Below, in pieces: positions 54,541-59,012 of a DNA stretch of 64,000 bases; positions within the stretch are counted from its first letter, which is position 1, and each line of letters starts with the position of its first letter. The position numbers and the translations under genes are program-made. The stretch is from assembly GCF_001424545.1 (NCBI RefSeq), contig NZ_LMQL01000012.1:129371-193370 (forward strand). The letters are read 5' to 3'. The notes below the pieces were generated by a model that saw nothing but the letters and a program-made list of their open reading frames with translations, had not been told where the DNA came from and searched no databases. Source of the DNA: Ramlibacter sp. Leaf400 (GTDB lineage: Bacteria; Pseudomonadota; Gammaproteobacteria; Burkholderiales; Burkholderiaceae_C).

Positions 54541-54629
54541 CCGTCATCCCCGCGAAGGCGGGGACCCCGGGCTTGCGGCAGTCCGCGGAAGGCGGACGCA
54601 CTGGATTCCCGCCTCCGCGGGAATGACGG
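54541..54629. repeat. Interspersed double-hairpin repeat (family B), copy 2
   Basis: The left hairpin is CATCCCCGCGAAGGCGGGGA and the right one is TTCCCGCCTCCGCGGGAATGACGG, here split by a GTCCGC-GGAAG-GCGGAC hairpin. It lies between two convergent genes (cyclo-ligase and LysR) and directly follows the cyclo-ligase stop, so it may serve as their terminator. Confidence 0.85.
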
Positions 54630-54635
54630 AATCTC

Positions 54636-55619
54636 TCAATCGATGTTGTCGACCGTGTCCGGATCCGGCACTTCGCCCACCGTCTGGCGGGTCGCGCGGC
54701 CCTGTTGCATGATCCAGTCGCAGAAGGCCTTGATCTCCGGACGGCCGCCGCTGCGCGGGCCCAGGATCAGCCAGTAGGCCATCGGCGAGTCCATGCGCAG
54801 CCGGGGCAGCGGCTCGATCAGGTCGCCGTTGGCCAGGTTCTCGGCCACCATGGGCAGCCGCGCCAGCACCACGCCCTGGCCGGTGAGCGCGGCCTGCACC
54901 ATCTGGTAGGCGTAGTTGAAATACAGCCAGCGCTTGGGCTGCAGCCGCGTGAGGTGCTGCTCGTCGAACCAGCGGCGCCACGTCAGCCATTCCAGGTGCG
55001 TGCGGTGCGCATCGCCCGCCTCGATCAGGGCGAACTGCGCCAGGTCCTCCGGCTTCTTCACCGCCGTGCCGCTCTTGAGCAGCCAGGGGCTGGCCACCGG
55101 CGTGAGCTGCTCGCCGAACAGGCGGATCGCCTTGGGCGGCATGTTGGCCGTCGGCCCGTAGCGCAGGGCGAGGTCGACGTCGGCCAGCTCCAGGTCGAGC
55201 GACGCGTCGCTGGCGTCGATGCGGATGTCCATGTCCGGGTTGTCGCGCTGGAACTGCTCCAGCCGCGGGATCAGCCACATCGACGCGAACGACGCGAAGG
55301 TGGTGACCGACACGCTCTTGCGGCCCGCGCTCTGGCGGATCTGCCGCACCGCCGAATCGATGCGCGGCAGCGCCTGCGACACCGCCAGCAGCAGCTGGGC
55401 GCCGGCGCCGGTGAGCTCGACCGCGCGCGTGTGCCGCAGGAACAGCGCGGCGCCCACTTCCTCCTCCAGCGCCTGGATCTGCCGGCTGACGGCCGATTGC
55501 GTGAGGGCCATCTCCTCCGAGGCGGCGCGGAAATTGAGGTGGCGCGCTACCGCCTCGAAGGCGCGCAGGTGCCCGGCGGAGATCGGGCGGGTGCGCAGGT
55601 GGGTCTGGGAGTGCAGCAT
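54636..55619 (-). CDS. LysR family transcriptional regulator (GcvA-like)
   Basis: This 327-residue regulator has an N-terminal winged helix-turn-helix (about residues 18-77: HLRAFEAVARHLNFRAASEEM, then LTQSAVSRQIQALEEEVG). The effector-binding domain of two alpha/beta lobes follows. The HTH is of the GcvA/TrpI type. It is transcribed divergently from a DUF2917 gene 129 bp away, the usual layout for a LysR protein and its target. An ATGAA-N14-TTCAT dyad lies in the gap. The effector is unknown. Confidence 0.92.
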   Translation of the reverse strand: MLHSQTHLRTRPISAGHLRAFEAVARHLNFRAASEEMALTQSAVSRQIQALEEEVGAALFLRHTRAVELTGAGAQLLLAVSQALPRIDSAVRQIRQSAGRKSVSVTTFASFASMWLIPRLEQFQRDNPDMDIRIDASDASLDLELADVDLALRYGPTANMPPKAIRLFGEQLTPVASPWLLKSGTAVKKPEDLAQFALIEAGDAHRTHLEWLTWRRWFDEQHLTRLQPKRWLYFNYAYQMVQAALTGQGVVLARLPMVAENLANGDLIEPLPRLRMDSPMAYWLILGPRSGGRPEIKAFCDWIMQQGRATRQTVGEVPDPDTVDNID

Positions 55620-55748: not shown

Positions 55749-56219
55749 ATGACCGCCCTCACGCTGACGCAATCGCAACAATCCGTCGCCCACCTGTCGG
55801 GCACCTGGCGGCTGGAGCCGTCGCGCGCCGTGACGCTGCGGCCGCGCGAGGACGGCCTGCTGCGCGTCGCGCACGGCTGCGTGTGGGTCACCTTCGACGG
55901 CCCGCACGCGGGACCGCTCAACGACCAGGGCGACCACGTGCTGGGCGCCGGCGAACAGATCCGGGTGCCGGCCGGCCGGCGTGTCGTGCTCGAGCCCCGC
56001 AACGGCAGCGCGCCGGCTTATTTCAGCTGGGACTTCGCGCCCCAGGTGGAGCCGGTGCGCGCCTCGCGCCGCGCGGCGGTCTCGCAGTCCTGGGACGACC
56101 TGCAGCTGGCGGCCGCCCTGGGCCTGCACGCCGGTGGGCGCCTGGCGGCCGCCGTGGTCTCCCTGGCTGCGGGCGCGCTGCTGCCCCGGCCGCAGAACAA
56201 CCAGTGCCCCGCCATGTGA
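55749..56219 (+). CDS. DUF2917 domain protein
   Basis: This 156-residue protein has a small beta-barrel-like DUF2917 domain in its first 95 residues (WRLEPSRAVTLRP, HGCVWVTFDG, LGAGEQIRVPAGRRVVLEP). It resembles a cupin-like fold used in proteins next to LysR regulators. The C-terminal part is Ala-rich with one hydrophobic stretch. No enzyme motif was found and the function is unknown. It is divergent from the LysR gene, which is likely to control it, and is followed by a TetR gene after a perfect palindrome. Confidence 0.78.
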   Translation: MTALTLTQSQQSVAHLSGTWRLEPSRAVTLRPREDGLLRVAHGCVWVTFDGPHAGPLNDQGDHVLGAGEQIRVPAGRRVVLEPRNGSAPAYFSWDFAPQVEPVRASRRAAVSQSWDDLQLAAALGLHAGGRLAAAVVSLAAGALLPRPQNNQCPAM

Positions 56220-56233
56220 CGTCCGCGCCGAAA

Positions 56234-56260
56234 GGGTGGCCGCGATAATCGCGGCCACCC
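56234..56260. promoter_or_regulatory. 27-bp perfect palindrome abutting the TetR start
   Basis: GGGTGGCCGCGAT and its exact reverse complement ATCGCGGCCACCC are separated by one A. The palindrome ends at the base before the tetR-type ATG and contains GATAAT (56244-56249), a possible -10. It is a good candidate for an autoregulatory TetR operator, or alternatively a terminator hairpin for the DUF2917 gene. Confidence 0.65.
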
Positions 56261-56860
56261 ATGCCGCGCCCACGTTCCCAGCAGCACGAGATCAAGAGGG
56301 ACGAGATCCTCGAGATCGCGGCGCAGTGCTTCGCCGAACGCAGCTATGCGGCGGCCAGCATGAACGACATCGCCGCGGCGGGCGGCACCTCCAAGGCGCG
56401 CCTGTACCACTACTACGAGAGCAAGGAAGCGATCCTGTTCGACCTGCTGGACCGCTACACCCAGCGGCTGCTGGCCCTCATCGGCCAGGTCGAGGCCACG
56501 GCCCAGCGGCGGCGGCTCGACGACCGCGCCGCGCTGCACGAGCTGGTGCGCGCCTTCCTGGATGAGTACGAAAGCAGCGCCACCCGCCACGCCGCGCTGC
56601 TGCACGACACCAAGTTCCTGGGCGATGCGCAGCGCGAGCTGATCCTGGACCGCCAGCGCGACGTGGTCGCGGCCGCCACACGTTTCCTGCGGCGCGCCTA
56701 TCCTGTGCACGTGCGAGAAGACAACCAGACCGCGGTGGTGATGATGCTGTTCGGCATGATCAACTGGACCTTCACCTGGCTGCGGCCGGGTGGGGCGATG
56801 ACGTATGCGGACTTCGCCGGGCAGGTGGTCGCCCTGGTCGACCGGGGGCTGTCGGCATGA
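56261..56860 (+). CDS. TetR family transcriptional regulator
   Basis: This 199-residue repressor has an N-terminal HTH (about residues 12-58). KRDEILEIAAQCFAERSYAAASMNDIAAAGGTSKARLYHYY is visible in parts such as ILEIAAQCFAE and LYHYYESKE. The divergent helical C-terminal domain resembles TetR proteins of fatty-acid or short-chain metabolism. The ATG directly follows a 27-bp perfect palindrome and has no ribosome site. The stop overlaps the gluconokinase start as ATGA, so the two are coupled. It could control itself, gntK and the MBL gene further on. Confidence 0.92.
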   Translation: MPRPRSQQHEIKRDEILEIAAQCFAERSYAAASMNDIAAAGGTSKARLYHYYESKEAILFDLLDRYTQRLLALIGQVEATAQRRRLDDRAALHELVRAFLDEYESSATRHAALLHDTKFLGDAQRELILDRQRDVVAAATRFLRRAYPVHVREDNQTAVVMMLFGMINWTFTWLRPGGAMTYADFAGQVVALVDRGLSA

Positions 56861-57351
56861 GCGGTATGCGCGTCGTCGTCATGGGCGTCTCGGGTTGCGG
56901 CAAGAGCGCCGTCGGCGAGCAGCTGGCGCAGGCGCTGGGGCTGCCGCTGATCGAGGGCGACAGCTTCCATCCGCCCGCCAACATCGACAAGATGAGCCGC
57001 GGCCTGCCGCTGGACGACACCGACCGCGCGGGCTGGCTGGACACGCTGGGGCAGGAACTCGCCCGGCGGCCCGCCGGCGCGGTGCTGACCTGCTCGGCGC
57101 TCAAGGCCGCCTACCGCGAGCGGCTGCGCGCCGCCGCGCCCGGGCTGCGCTTCGTGCACCTGTCGCTCACGCCGCAGCAGGCGCTGGGGCGCGTGGCGAC
57201 ACGCAAGGACCACTTCTATCCGGCCAGCCTGGTCGACAGCCAGTTCGCCGCGCTGGAAGACCCGGGCGGCGAGCCGGGCGTGGTGGTCGTCGATGCCTCG
57301 CAACCGATGGCGCAGGTGGTGGCCGCCGCGCGCCAGGGCCTGGCGTCCTGA
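56857..57351 (+). CDS. gntK: Gluconokinase
   Basis: This 164-residue kinase phosphorylates D-gluconate to 6-phosphogluconate, feeding the Entner-Doudoroff or pentose phosphate route. The P-loop GVSGCGKS is at residues 10-17. EGDSFHPPANIDKMSRG and the substrate segment CSALKAAYR match the GntK/IdnK family, and the length is typical (about 165-175). The start overlaps the TetR stop as ATGA. No gluconate transporter or GntR is next to it, so its linkage to TetR control is unusual. Confidence 0.93.
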   Translation: MSGMRVVVMGVSGCGKSAVGEQLAQALGLPLIEGDSFHPPANIDKMSRGLPLDDTDRAGWLDTLGQELARRPAGAVLTCSALKAAYRERLRAAAPGLRFVHLSLTPQQALGRVATRKDHFYPASLVDSQFAALEDPGGEPGVVVVDASQPMAQVVAAARQGLAS

Positions 57352-57384
57352 GAGCCTGGGCCTTGCGGCCCGTCGTTTCACATT

Positions 57385-57400
57385 CCGTAATGCATTACGG
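57385..57400. promoter_or_regulatory. 16-bp perfect palindrome in the MBL promoter
   Basis: CCGTAATG-CATTACGG lies just before TAGAAT (57405-57410), the likely -10 of the downstream metallo-hydrolase gene. A repressor bound here would block the promoter. Confidence 0.6.
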
Positions 57401-57404
57401 TAAG

Positions 57405-57410
57405 TAGAAT
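57405..57410 (+). promoter_or_regulatory. Putative -10 of the MBL hydrolase gene
   Basis: TAGAAT lies 39 nt before the ATG and 4 nt after the palindrome at 57385-57400. Confidence 0.45.
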
Positions 57411-57449: not shown

Positions 57450-58439
57450 GTGAGCAAAGCCTTCGCCAGCCAGGCCGACCTGGAAGACAAGAAGATCACC
57501 TTCGAGCAGCTGTCCCCGCACTGCTGGGCCTACACCGCCGAGGGCGACCCGAACTCGGGCGTGATCATCGGCGACAAGTTCATCATGGTCAGCGACGCCA
57601 CCGCCACGCCCGCGATGGCCAGGGACCTCATCGCGCGCATCCGCACCGTGAGCGACAAGCCGATCAAGTACGTTCTGCTCACGCACTACCACGCGGTCCG
57701 CGTGCTGGGCGCCAGCGCGTACTTCGCCGAAGGCGCGACCGAGATCATCGCCAGCCAGGGCACCTACGAGCTGATCCTGGAGCGTGGCAAGGAGGACATG
57801 CAGTCCGAGATGGACCGCTTCCCGCGCCTGTTCCGCAACGCCGAGAGCGTGCCGGGCCTGACCTGGCCGACCATGGTGATCGGCGGCGGCAACCCCACCA
57901 AGGGCGAGGTGCCCGGCCGGCTCAGCGTCGAGCTGGGCGGCGTGAAGGTGGAGATCTGGCATCCGGGCCCGGGCCACACGCGCGGCGACACCATCGCCTG
58001 GGTGGAAGAAGAGAAAGTGCTGTTCTCCGGCGACCTGGTCGAGTACGACGCCGGCGTCTACACCGGCGACGCGCACCTGGAGGAATGGCCCGCCACGCTG
58101 GAGGCGCTGCGTGCGCTCCAGGCCGAGGCGCTGGTGCCCGGACGCGGCGAGGCGATGAAGGGCAACGCGCAGGTGAACAAGGCGCTCGACTACACCCGGC
58201 GCTGGGTGGAGACGCTGTTCGCCGCGGCCAAGGAGGCGGCCGCCGCCAACATGGACCTGAAGGCCGCGATGGCGCACACGCGCAAGAGCATGGACCCGGT
58301 GTTCGGCCACGTGTTCATCTACGAGCACTGCCTGCCGTTCGACGTGAGCCGCGCATACGACGAGGCCCGCGGCATCAAGAACCCGCGCATCTGGACGGCC
58401 GAGCGGGATAAGGAGATGTGGGCCTCGCTGCAAAGCTGA
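57450..58439 (+). CDS. MBL fold metallo-hydrolase with altered metal motif
   Basis: This 329-residue protein has the metallo-beta-lactamase fold. The usual HxHxDH is replaced by THYHAVRVLG (His79 and His81 kept, Asp and third His absent). Later ligands remain: GPGHTRGD near residue 174 and LFSGDLVEYDAG near residue 195. So metal site 1 is nearly complete while site 2 is compromised. The C-terminal third (about 235-329) is helical. GGAGAG lies 7 nt before the ATG (GTG upstream is less likely). A palindrome in its promoter suggests specific repression, possibly by the nearby TetR protein. Substrate unknown. Confidence 0.85.
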   Translation: MSKAFASQADLEDKKITFEQLSPHCWAYTAEGDPNSGVIIGDKFIMVSDATATPAMARDLIARIRTVSDKPIKYVLLTHYHAVRVLGASAYFAEGATEIIASQGTYELILERGKEDMQSEMDRFPRLFRNAESVPGLTWPTMVIGGGNPTKGEVPGRLSVELGGVKVEIWHPGPGHTRGDTIAWVEEEKVLFSGDLVEYDAGVYTGDAHLEEWPATLEALRALQAEALVPGRGEAMKGNAQVNKALDYTRRWVETLFAAAKEAAAANMDLKAAMAHTRKSMDPVFGHVFIYEHCLPFDVSRAYDEARGIKNPRIWTAERDKEMWASLQS

Positions 58440-58890: not shown

Positions 58891-58924
58891 AGCGCTCCCG
58901 TCGTCCCCGCCACGACTGAACTCC

Positions 58925-59012
58925 CGTCGTCCCCGCGAAGGCGGGGACCCAGTGCGTCCGCCTTTGCGGGCTGCCTGGAAGCGCTGGATTCCCGCCTCCG
59001 CGGGAATGACGG
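58925..59012. repeat. Interspersed double-hairpin repeat (family B), copy 3
   Basis: The left hairpin is GTCCCCGCGAAGGCGGGGAC and the right one is TTCCCGCCTCCGCGGGAA with TGACGG. A partial left-arm duplicate (CTCCCGTCGTCCCCGC) lies at 58894-58909. The element sits between the convergent small-protein and MFS genes. Confidence 0.85.

Follow-up and report, generated by a model that had tools for sequence, protein, structure and literature searches.

Upstream of the gene for a metallo-beta-lactamase (MBL)-fold protein in Ramlibacter sp. Leaf400 lies a symmetric element of about 34 bp that overlies the core promoter of the gene and recurs before the same gene in related genomes. We consider it fairly probable that this element is an operator bound by a homodimeric repressor, that the TetR-family regulator encoded next to it is not its only reader, and that a longer, 27-bp palindrome before tetR is specific to this strain.

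The window analyzed here is a stretch of 64,000 nucleotides from a genome of 4.59 Mb in 15 contigs. The genes of interest run in the order lysR (minus strand), a DUF2917 gene, tetR, gntK and the MBL gene. The product of tetR (56261–56860, plus strand) carries TetR_N and TetR_C_24 domains and belongs to the TetR family (PF00440, 49.8 bits against a cut-off of 24; PF17932, 56.6 bits against 26.4). The stop of tetR overlaps by 4 nt a plus-strand gene for a gluconokinase of the GntK/IdnK type (56857–57351; TIGR01313, 183.1 bits against 113.75), and the MBL gene, which follows the candidate operator, starts with GTG and encodes 329 amino acids (57450–58439, plus strand). Relatives of the MBL gene were found on contigs named Ramlibacter, Caenimonas, Polaromonas, Hydrogenophaga and other Comamonadaceae. 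The block from lysR to the MBL gene is flanked by two similar REP-like inverted repeats of about 89 nt (54541–54630 and 58924–59012), which read roughly CCGTCATCCCCGCGAAGGCGGGGACCC ... ATTCCCGCCTCCGCGGGAATGACGG, the first copy being read by eye. A defence-system scan of the TetR and MBL proteins gave no match.

The center of the element is a 16-bp perfect palindrome, CCGTAATGCATTACGG, at 57385–57400, which ends 4 nt before TAGAAT, the -10 of the MBL gene (57405–57410, plus strand), just as the earlier note had described. This core is embedded in an extended dyad, TTTCACATT-CCGTAATGCATTACGG-TAAGTAGAA (57376–57409), in which 13 of 17 pairs are complementary in the window (row L062) and whose right arm is overlapped by the -10. 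Across sites a TAAAAT/TAGAAT-like -10 is kept 4–5 nt past the core. The length of the core is not unusual, the window holding 13 palindromes with 16 or more paired nt against about 8 expected; it is the sole one among them with a GC content of 50% or less (0.12 expected). When one mismatch is allowed, CGTAATNNATTACG occurs once in the 4.59-Mb genome, and so does the full 16-mer core when two are allowed. The palindromes had been said to bracket a TetR-gluconokinase-MBL block; they do bracket tetR-gntK, but the second one sits between gntK and the MBL gene.

Conservation was judged first within the genus, where 56 of 60 genomes have MBL relatives at E ≤ 1e-60. G075 and G076, which hold only an MBL paralogue of about 55–57%, were excluded; of the 54 loci retained, 52 (all except L078 and L111) had enough upstream DNA. 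Sites were called by scoring SCGTAAYNNRTTACGS in the 170 nt upstream of the MBL gene with a threshold of 11 out of 14, and 38 of the 52 loci reached it. Symmetric variants in L123 and L150 (score 10) and in L181 (score 9) were counted as missing at this threshold, here and in the family-locus and MBL-tree counts below. A strict core pattern, SCGTAAYNSRTTACGS, was also sought throughout the 60 whole genomes, giving 18 positions in 17 genomes; the control, this pattern in reverse order, had matches in 7 genomes. By coordinate comparison, 17 of the 18 positions are no more than about 75 nt away from the MBL gene. The remaining one, in G024, precedes by eye a second, MBL-like N-terminus, and its assignment to gntK was rejected on that ground. 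The locus in question (L254) has a duplicated operator plus an MBL-like N-terminus; near its DUF2917 gene there is also a TetR-like stretch (58 amino acids at 47%), perhaps a remnant. Of 12 genomes covered by the looser search with CGTAATNNATTACG, allowing up to one mismatch, 9 had matches, at 15 positions in all, of which 8 are at the MBL gene and 7 elsewhere.

In a sample of 250 genomes from the family, a longer pattern, TTCAACAATSCGTAAYNNRTTACG, with up to three mismatches was found in 24, against 7 for its backward control. The MBL gene is present in 24 of the 28 loci of this sample and absent from L199, L216, L220 and L221. Near position 1500 of L199, L220 and L221 a related element, TTCAACAATGCGTAATKCRTTTAC, stands between VOC-type and rubrerythrin-like genes (named by eye), and is possibly a second target or the site of another regulator. 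Named loci with the site come from Ramlibacter, Caenimonas, Polaromonas, Hydrogenophaga, Curvibacter, Rhodoferax and Hylemonella. The element is near-exclusive to the MBL gene and, from its sequence and placement, looks like a candidate dimer-binding operator dedicated to it. In some genomes, as read by eye, the final codons of tetR or gntK lie within it, in frames that differ, which argues that selection acts on the DNA and not on the protein.

The consensus of 82 de-duplicated sites (from 92 distinct ones) is TTYAACAAT-nCGTAATnnATTACGn-TTAGGTAAAAT, the right part of which can also be written TTAGGTAAAATC, and positions outside these 34 bp show little conservation. One row, L188, is a misplaced best match; it was dropped from the register test and is still included in the consensus, the MBL tree and the counts of 113 rows and 95 sites. 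In the register test, with 81 sites, complementarity is 76% for the inner 8 pairs, against at most 23% when the halves are slid by 1–3 nt, and 65% for the outer 9 pairs, against at most 45% when slid. The inner symmetry is partly selected, because a palindromic pattern was used to find the sites; the outer arms are free of that selection, and in some lineages they are near-perfect (TTTACCTAT/ATAGGTAAA in L167, TTTTACTAT/ATAGTAAAA in L145). Against shuffled right halves, complementarity is 76.4 versus 72.4% for the inner and 65.0 versus 61.6% for the outer pairs, a level reached by 0 of 2000 shuffles; this excess is small and inflated by relatedness, so it is to be read as support and not as a p-value. 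Both CGTAA and TTACG are intact in 67 of 95 sites, while one side is altered in 22 (the right one in 21) and both in 6, one of these being the misplaced match. Symmetric double changes occur, with CGTCAT/ATGACG in L090 and L123 and CGAAA/TTTCG in L150 and L184. Such paired substitutions are outnumbered by one-sided ones, which counts against the reading as an operator, but they suggest that a single protein recognizes the two halves.

The obvious candidate for that protein is the linked TetR. A tetR gene at least 76% identical to that of the window is present in 26 of the 60 same-genus genomes, always within 1.3 kb upstream of the MBL gene, and outside the family a 54% TetR adjoins a 65% MBL protein in L242, where no dyad was seen. 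From this tight linkage, also kept in another family, TetR may still act on the MBL gene here, and the linked TetR probably acts together with MBL. It is a different matter whether TetR reads the conserved site. Within the genus, the 26 TetR-bearing loci divide into 21 with and 5 without the site, the 26 TetR-less ones into 17 and 9 (Fisher p 0.35). Among the 113 family rows, 62 of the 71 that have tetR carry the site, and so do 30 of the 42 that lack tetR (Fisher p 0.046, without correction for relatedness), a mild association in TetR's favour. Co-occurrence of the site with a linked TetR, taken as the mark of an operator pair, is not borne out by these counts or by the whole-genome searches below. 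For the family loci and the MBL tree, TetR-less means that tetR was not seen in the fetched stretch, which is short for L144 and L134.

Fifteen genomes without tetR at the locus were searched in full, and 14 of them gave no tetR orthologue elsewhere (no match, or matches of 28–36%); the exception, G153, has a tetR at 82% about 5 kb from the MBL gene. In this set the coordinates of G165 and G338 coincide, so the two probably represent one genome; completeness is reported for 4 of the 15 (90–100%), so that some of the tetR absences may be gaps, and L123 carries one of the symmetric site variants (score 10). The tree of MBL proteins (113 rows) contains a supported clade of 11 Polaromonas/Rhodoferax-type rows without tetR. 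For 10 of these, which are also all those with enough upstream DNA, the whole genome was searched for tetR, and identity among them is 77% over the 34 bp of the element, compared with 26% and 29% on either side of it. The 17 TetR-less same-genus rows, which were chosen for having the site, give 80% for the element against 36% and 31% for the flanks. Neutral decay would have erased an element that stands amid near-random flanks in a TetR-less clade, and since the element is kept in lineages where TetR was not found, the linked TetR cannot be its sole reader. An independent-pairs test on supported branches of the MBL tree found only 6 pairs with a difference in TetR. Across 200 random pairings, the site changes in step with TetR in 1.5, in the opposite sense in 0.1 and not at all in 4.4 (median p 1), too few pairs to decide. 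By the same kind of test, a link between TetR and the spacing from core to -10 (4 or 5 nt) was not significant and was rejected.

These results suggest that in TetR-less lineages an unlinked regulator most likely reads the MBL element. A homodimeric regulator, possibly acting as two dimers, would bind the element of about 34 bp and block RNA polymerase at the MBL promoter until a signal releases it. A bolder and rather uncertain reading is that an unlinked regulator of the Comamonadaceae has a single genomic target, the 34-bp dyad at the promoter of this MBL gene with its altered metal site, and that TetR would be an extra layer lost in several lineages while the switch was kept.

A somewhat doubtful alternative is that the linked TetR represses the MBL operator wherever it is present and that another protein took over in TetR-less lineages. 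The invariable neighbourhood of tetR and the MBL gene, the position of the operator between tetR(-gntK) and the MBL gene, and the association over the 113 rows speak for it; the small within-genus difference, the Polaromonas/Rhodoferax clade that keeps the element and the undecided pairs speak against it, as does the lack of any copy of the site before tetR. Moreover, the recognition helix of TetR, GTSKARLYHYY in 65 of 71 rows and GASKARLYHYY in 6, is unchanged where the half-sites change (L090, L150, L184). A paralogous TetR, 37–42% identical and found in many TetR-less genomes, was rejected as a replacement; its DNA-binding region differs, with the helix GLSKATLYHYY or -YHYF against GTSKARLYHYY (four loci aligned). 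The earlier suggestion that the same or another regulator controls the MBL gene holds as to a dyad operator, which is likely present at the MBL promoter, but the linked TetR is weakened as its reader by the 17 of 26 TetR-less loci that keep the site. Repression of gntK by TetR, also suggested, found no support. The gntK gene is not a constant partner: it lies between tetR and the MBL gene in 20 of the 26 tetR-bearing loci and is missing there in 6.

The 27-bp palindrome GGGTGGCCGCGATAATCGCGGCCACCC (56234–56260) is the longest perfect palindrome of the window, a 13+1+13 dyad around GATAAT (56244–56249, plus strand), a putative tetR -10 in its middle. It directly abuts the tetR ATG at 56261, which agrees with the earlier description, and an mRNA leader starting from this -10 would be no longer than a few nt. 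Simulation of 100 windows of 64 kb (first-order Markov) produced 26 paired nt once, so roughly one such dyad per 4.6-Mb genome is unsurprising. By chance alone this palindrome is still the remarkable one of the two; comparison with relatives reverses the ranking. It is missing from all 70 of the other distinct 5' regions of tetR and is seen only in this strain, and its 23-nt core gave 0 exact matches in the contig collection, which may omit the window's own record. The conservation check that the earlier note had proposed thus favours the MBL site, which is conserved in the family, but not the 27-bp palindrome. On these comparisons the 27-bp palindrome appears to be a strain-specific dyad around the -10 rather than a conserved operator of the linked TetR.

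The surrounding promoter layout is more widely shared. In 60 of 71 tetR 5' regions a -10-like hexamer ends 5–8 nt before the ATG; in the window the distance is 11 nt. The set of hexamers was picked after inspection of these regions, and they have a frequency of 0.8% in random 28-mers of the loci. This conserved spacing suggests that the tetR mRNA is probably leaderless. Perfect dyads of at least 18 nt occur in 5 of 71 tetR 5' regions and in 0 of 252 regions before seven other genes; the MBL set, kept apart from the 252, has one such dyad in 111, which is the MBL operator itself. Four of the five tetR dyads are centered on the -10, and their sequences are unrelated between lineages, an example being CATGGGTGGACAATGTCCACCCATG in L156 and L165. 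They possibly arose by mutation through template switching, or are lineage-specific operators. Several Hydrogenophaga tetR promoters (L156, L165, L169, L174, L183 and L185) have perfect or imperfect GTGGACAAT..TCCAC-like dyads over the -10, perhaps a lineage-specific autoregulatory site. RNA of the region 56200–56290 folds very stably (-45.5 kcal/mol, z -5.4). A terminator role of the 27-bp palindrome was rejected, since it lacks a T-run and the terminator scan found none.

Autorepression of TetR through this palindrome, as had been proposed, is not borne out by the other 70 tetR 5' regions, all of which lack it despite a near-invariant recognition helix. A narrower version, in which the palindrome is an autoregulatory TetR operator of this strain alone, gains from its centering on the -10 and from the enrichment of long dyads before tetR. 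We think it unlikely, given that these dyads differ in sequence from lineage to lineage, that the palindrome itself is missing elsewhere and that the DNA-binding helix is nearly identical in all 71 rows. The two sites of the window are unrelated, so that two regulators are possible, as the earlier note had remarked.

The MBL element might also be nothing but a promoter, for instance one in which symmetric -10 boxes drive transcription in both directions without a regulator, given that its right arm is the -10 and its left arm roughly the mirror image of it. This we regard as improbable: much of the conservation falls between the places expected for the -35 and the -10, in the CGTAAT/ATTACG core, where no sigma-70 hexamer explains it, a consensus scan detected no sigma-70 promoter at the element, and symmetric changes of the core occur. 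Reading by the upstream LysR-type regulator (54636–55619), whose gene is syntenic in most loci and was found in 11 of 12 site-bearing genomes searched, is very improbable, because the site-bearing genome G030 has no match to it at E ≤ 1e-90, several site-less loci have the gene too, and the dyad is centered near -25, away from the usual LysR position. Other genes beside the MBL gene were noted by eye, namely BLUF-like photoreceptor genes adjoining it downstream in the Polaromonas-type loci L138, L141, L170 and L179, and a Crp/Fnr-like gene downstream of it in three of the Polaromonas-type loci (L141, L170 and L179).

The arrangement resembles known TetR repressor/operator pairs, in that a regulator gene adjoins a conserved target and a short palindrome lies over the core promoter of that target, and differs from them in that the operator is kept where a TetR gene was not found and has no copy before tetR. 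QacR-like operators are read by two dimers; the likeness here is in the nested inverted repeats over about 34 bp. FNR/CRP-type sites have the form TTGAT-N4-ATCAA. The MBL element shares their 5-N4-5 geometry (CGTAA-N4-TTACG) but has another half-site sequence, and no FNR/CRP protein is linked to the site in the window. Among the matches listed, literature searches with three CGTAAT..ATTACG strings returned no occurrence, and other searches returned nothing on this locus. The passages retrieved from PMC5343134 have no motif of the CGTAAT..ATTACG kind.

The gene downstream of the element encodes an MBL-fold protein by its domain match (PF00753, 61.4 bits against a cut-off of 22.7). Canonical metallo-beta-lactamases have the motifs HxHxDH and PGHG, the latter with the last metal histidine. 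These canonical metal-ligand motifs are absent from the protein of the window, which has HYHAVR and PGRG instead, as does its full-length match in the PDB, the metallo-beta-lactamase superfamily protein 8d2z (486 bits). A class B beta-lactamase is not indicated by the subclass B1 model (85.8 bits against a cut-off of 200), and among the 25 of 55 NCBIfam models listed none reaches its cut-off. A literature search by the entry code 8d2z gave no relevant paper. MBL paralogues of about 52–55% in L244–L248 are divergent from a gene read by eye as an IclR-type regulator, and in L245 and L246 there are CAAACGCGTTTG dyads between the two.

The MBL element is probably an operator, and as such an ordinary class of object, but its sequence conservation marks it as well defined and ancient, and the obvious regulator appears dispensable for that conservation. 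A test of conservation here tells the conspicuous palindrome, private to one strain, from the more modest one, which is ancient. A gene of unassigned function is thereby given a well-defined, family-wide candidate operator that its obvious neighbour is insufficient to explain, and naming the reader of this operator could reveal, through its ligand, the pathway of the MBL protein.
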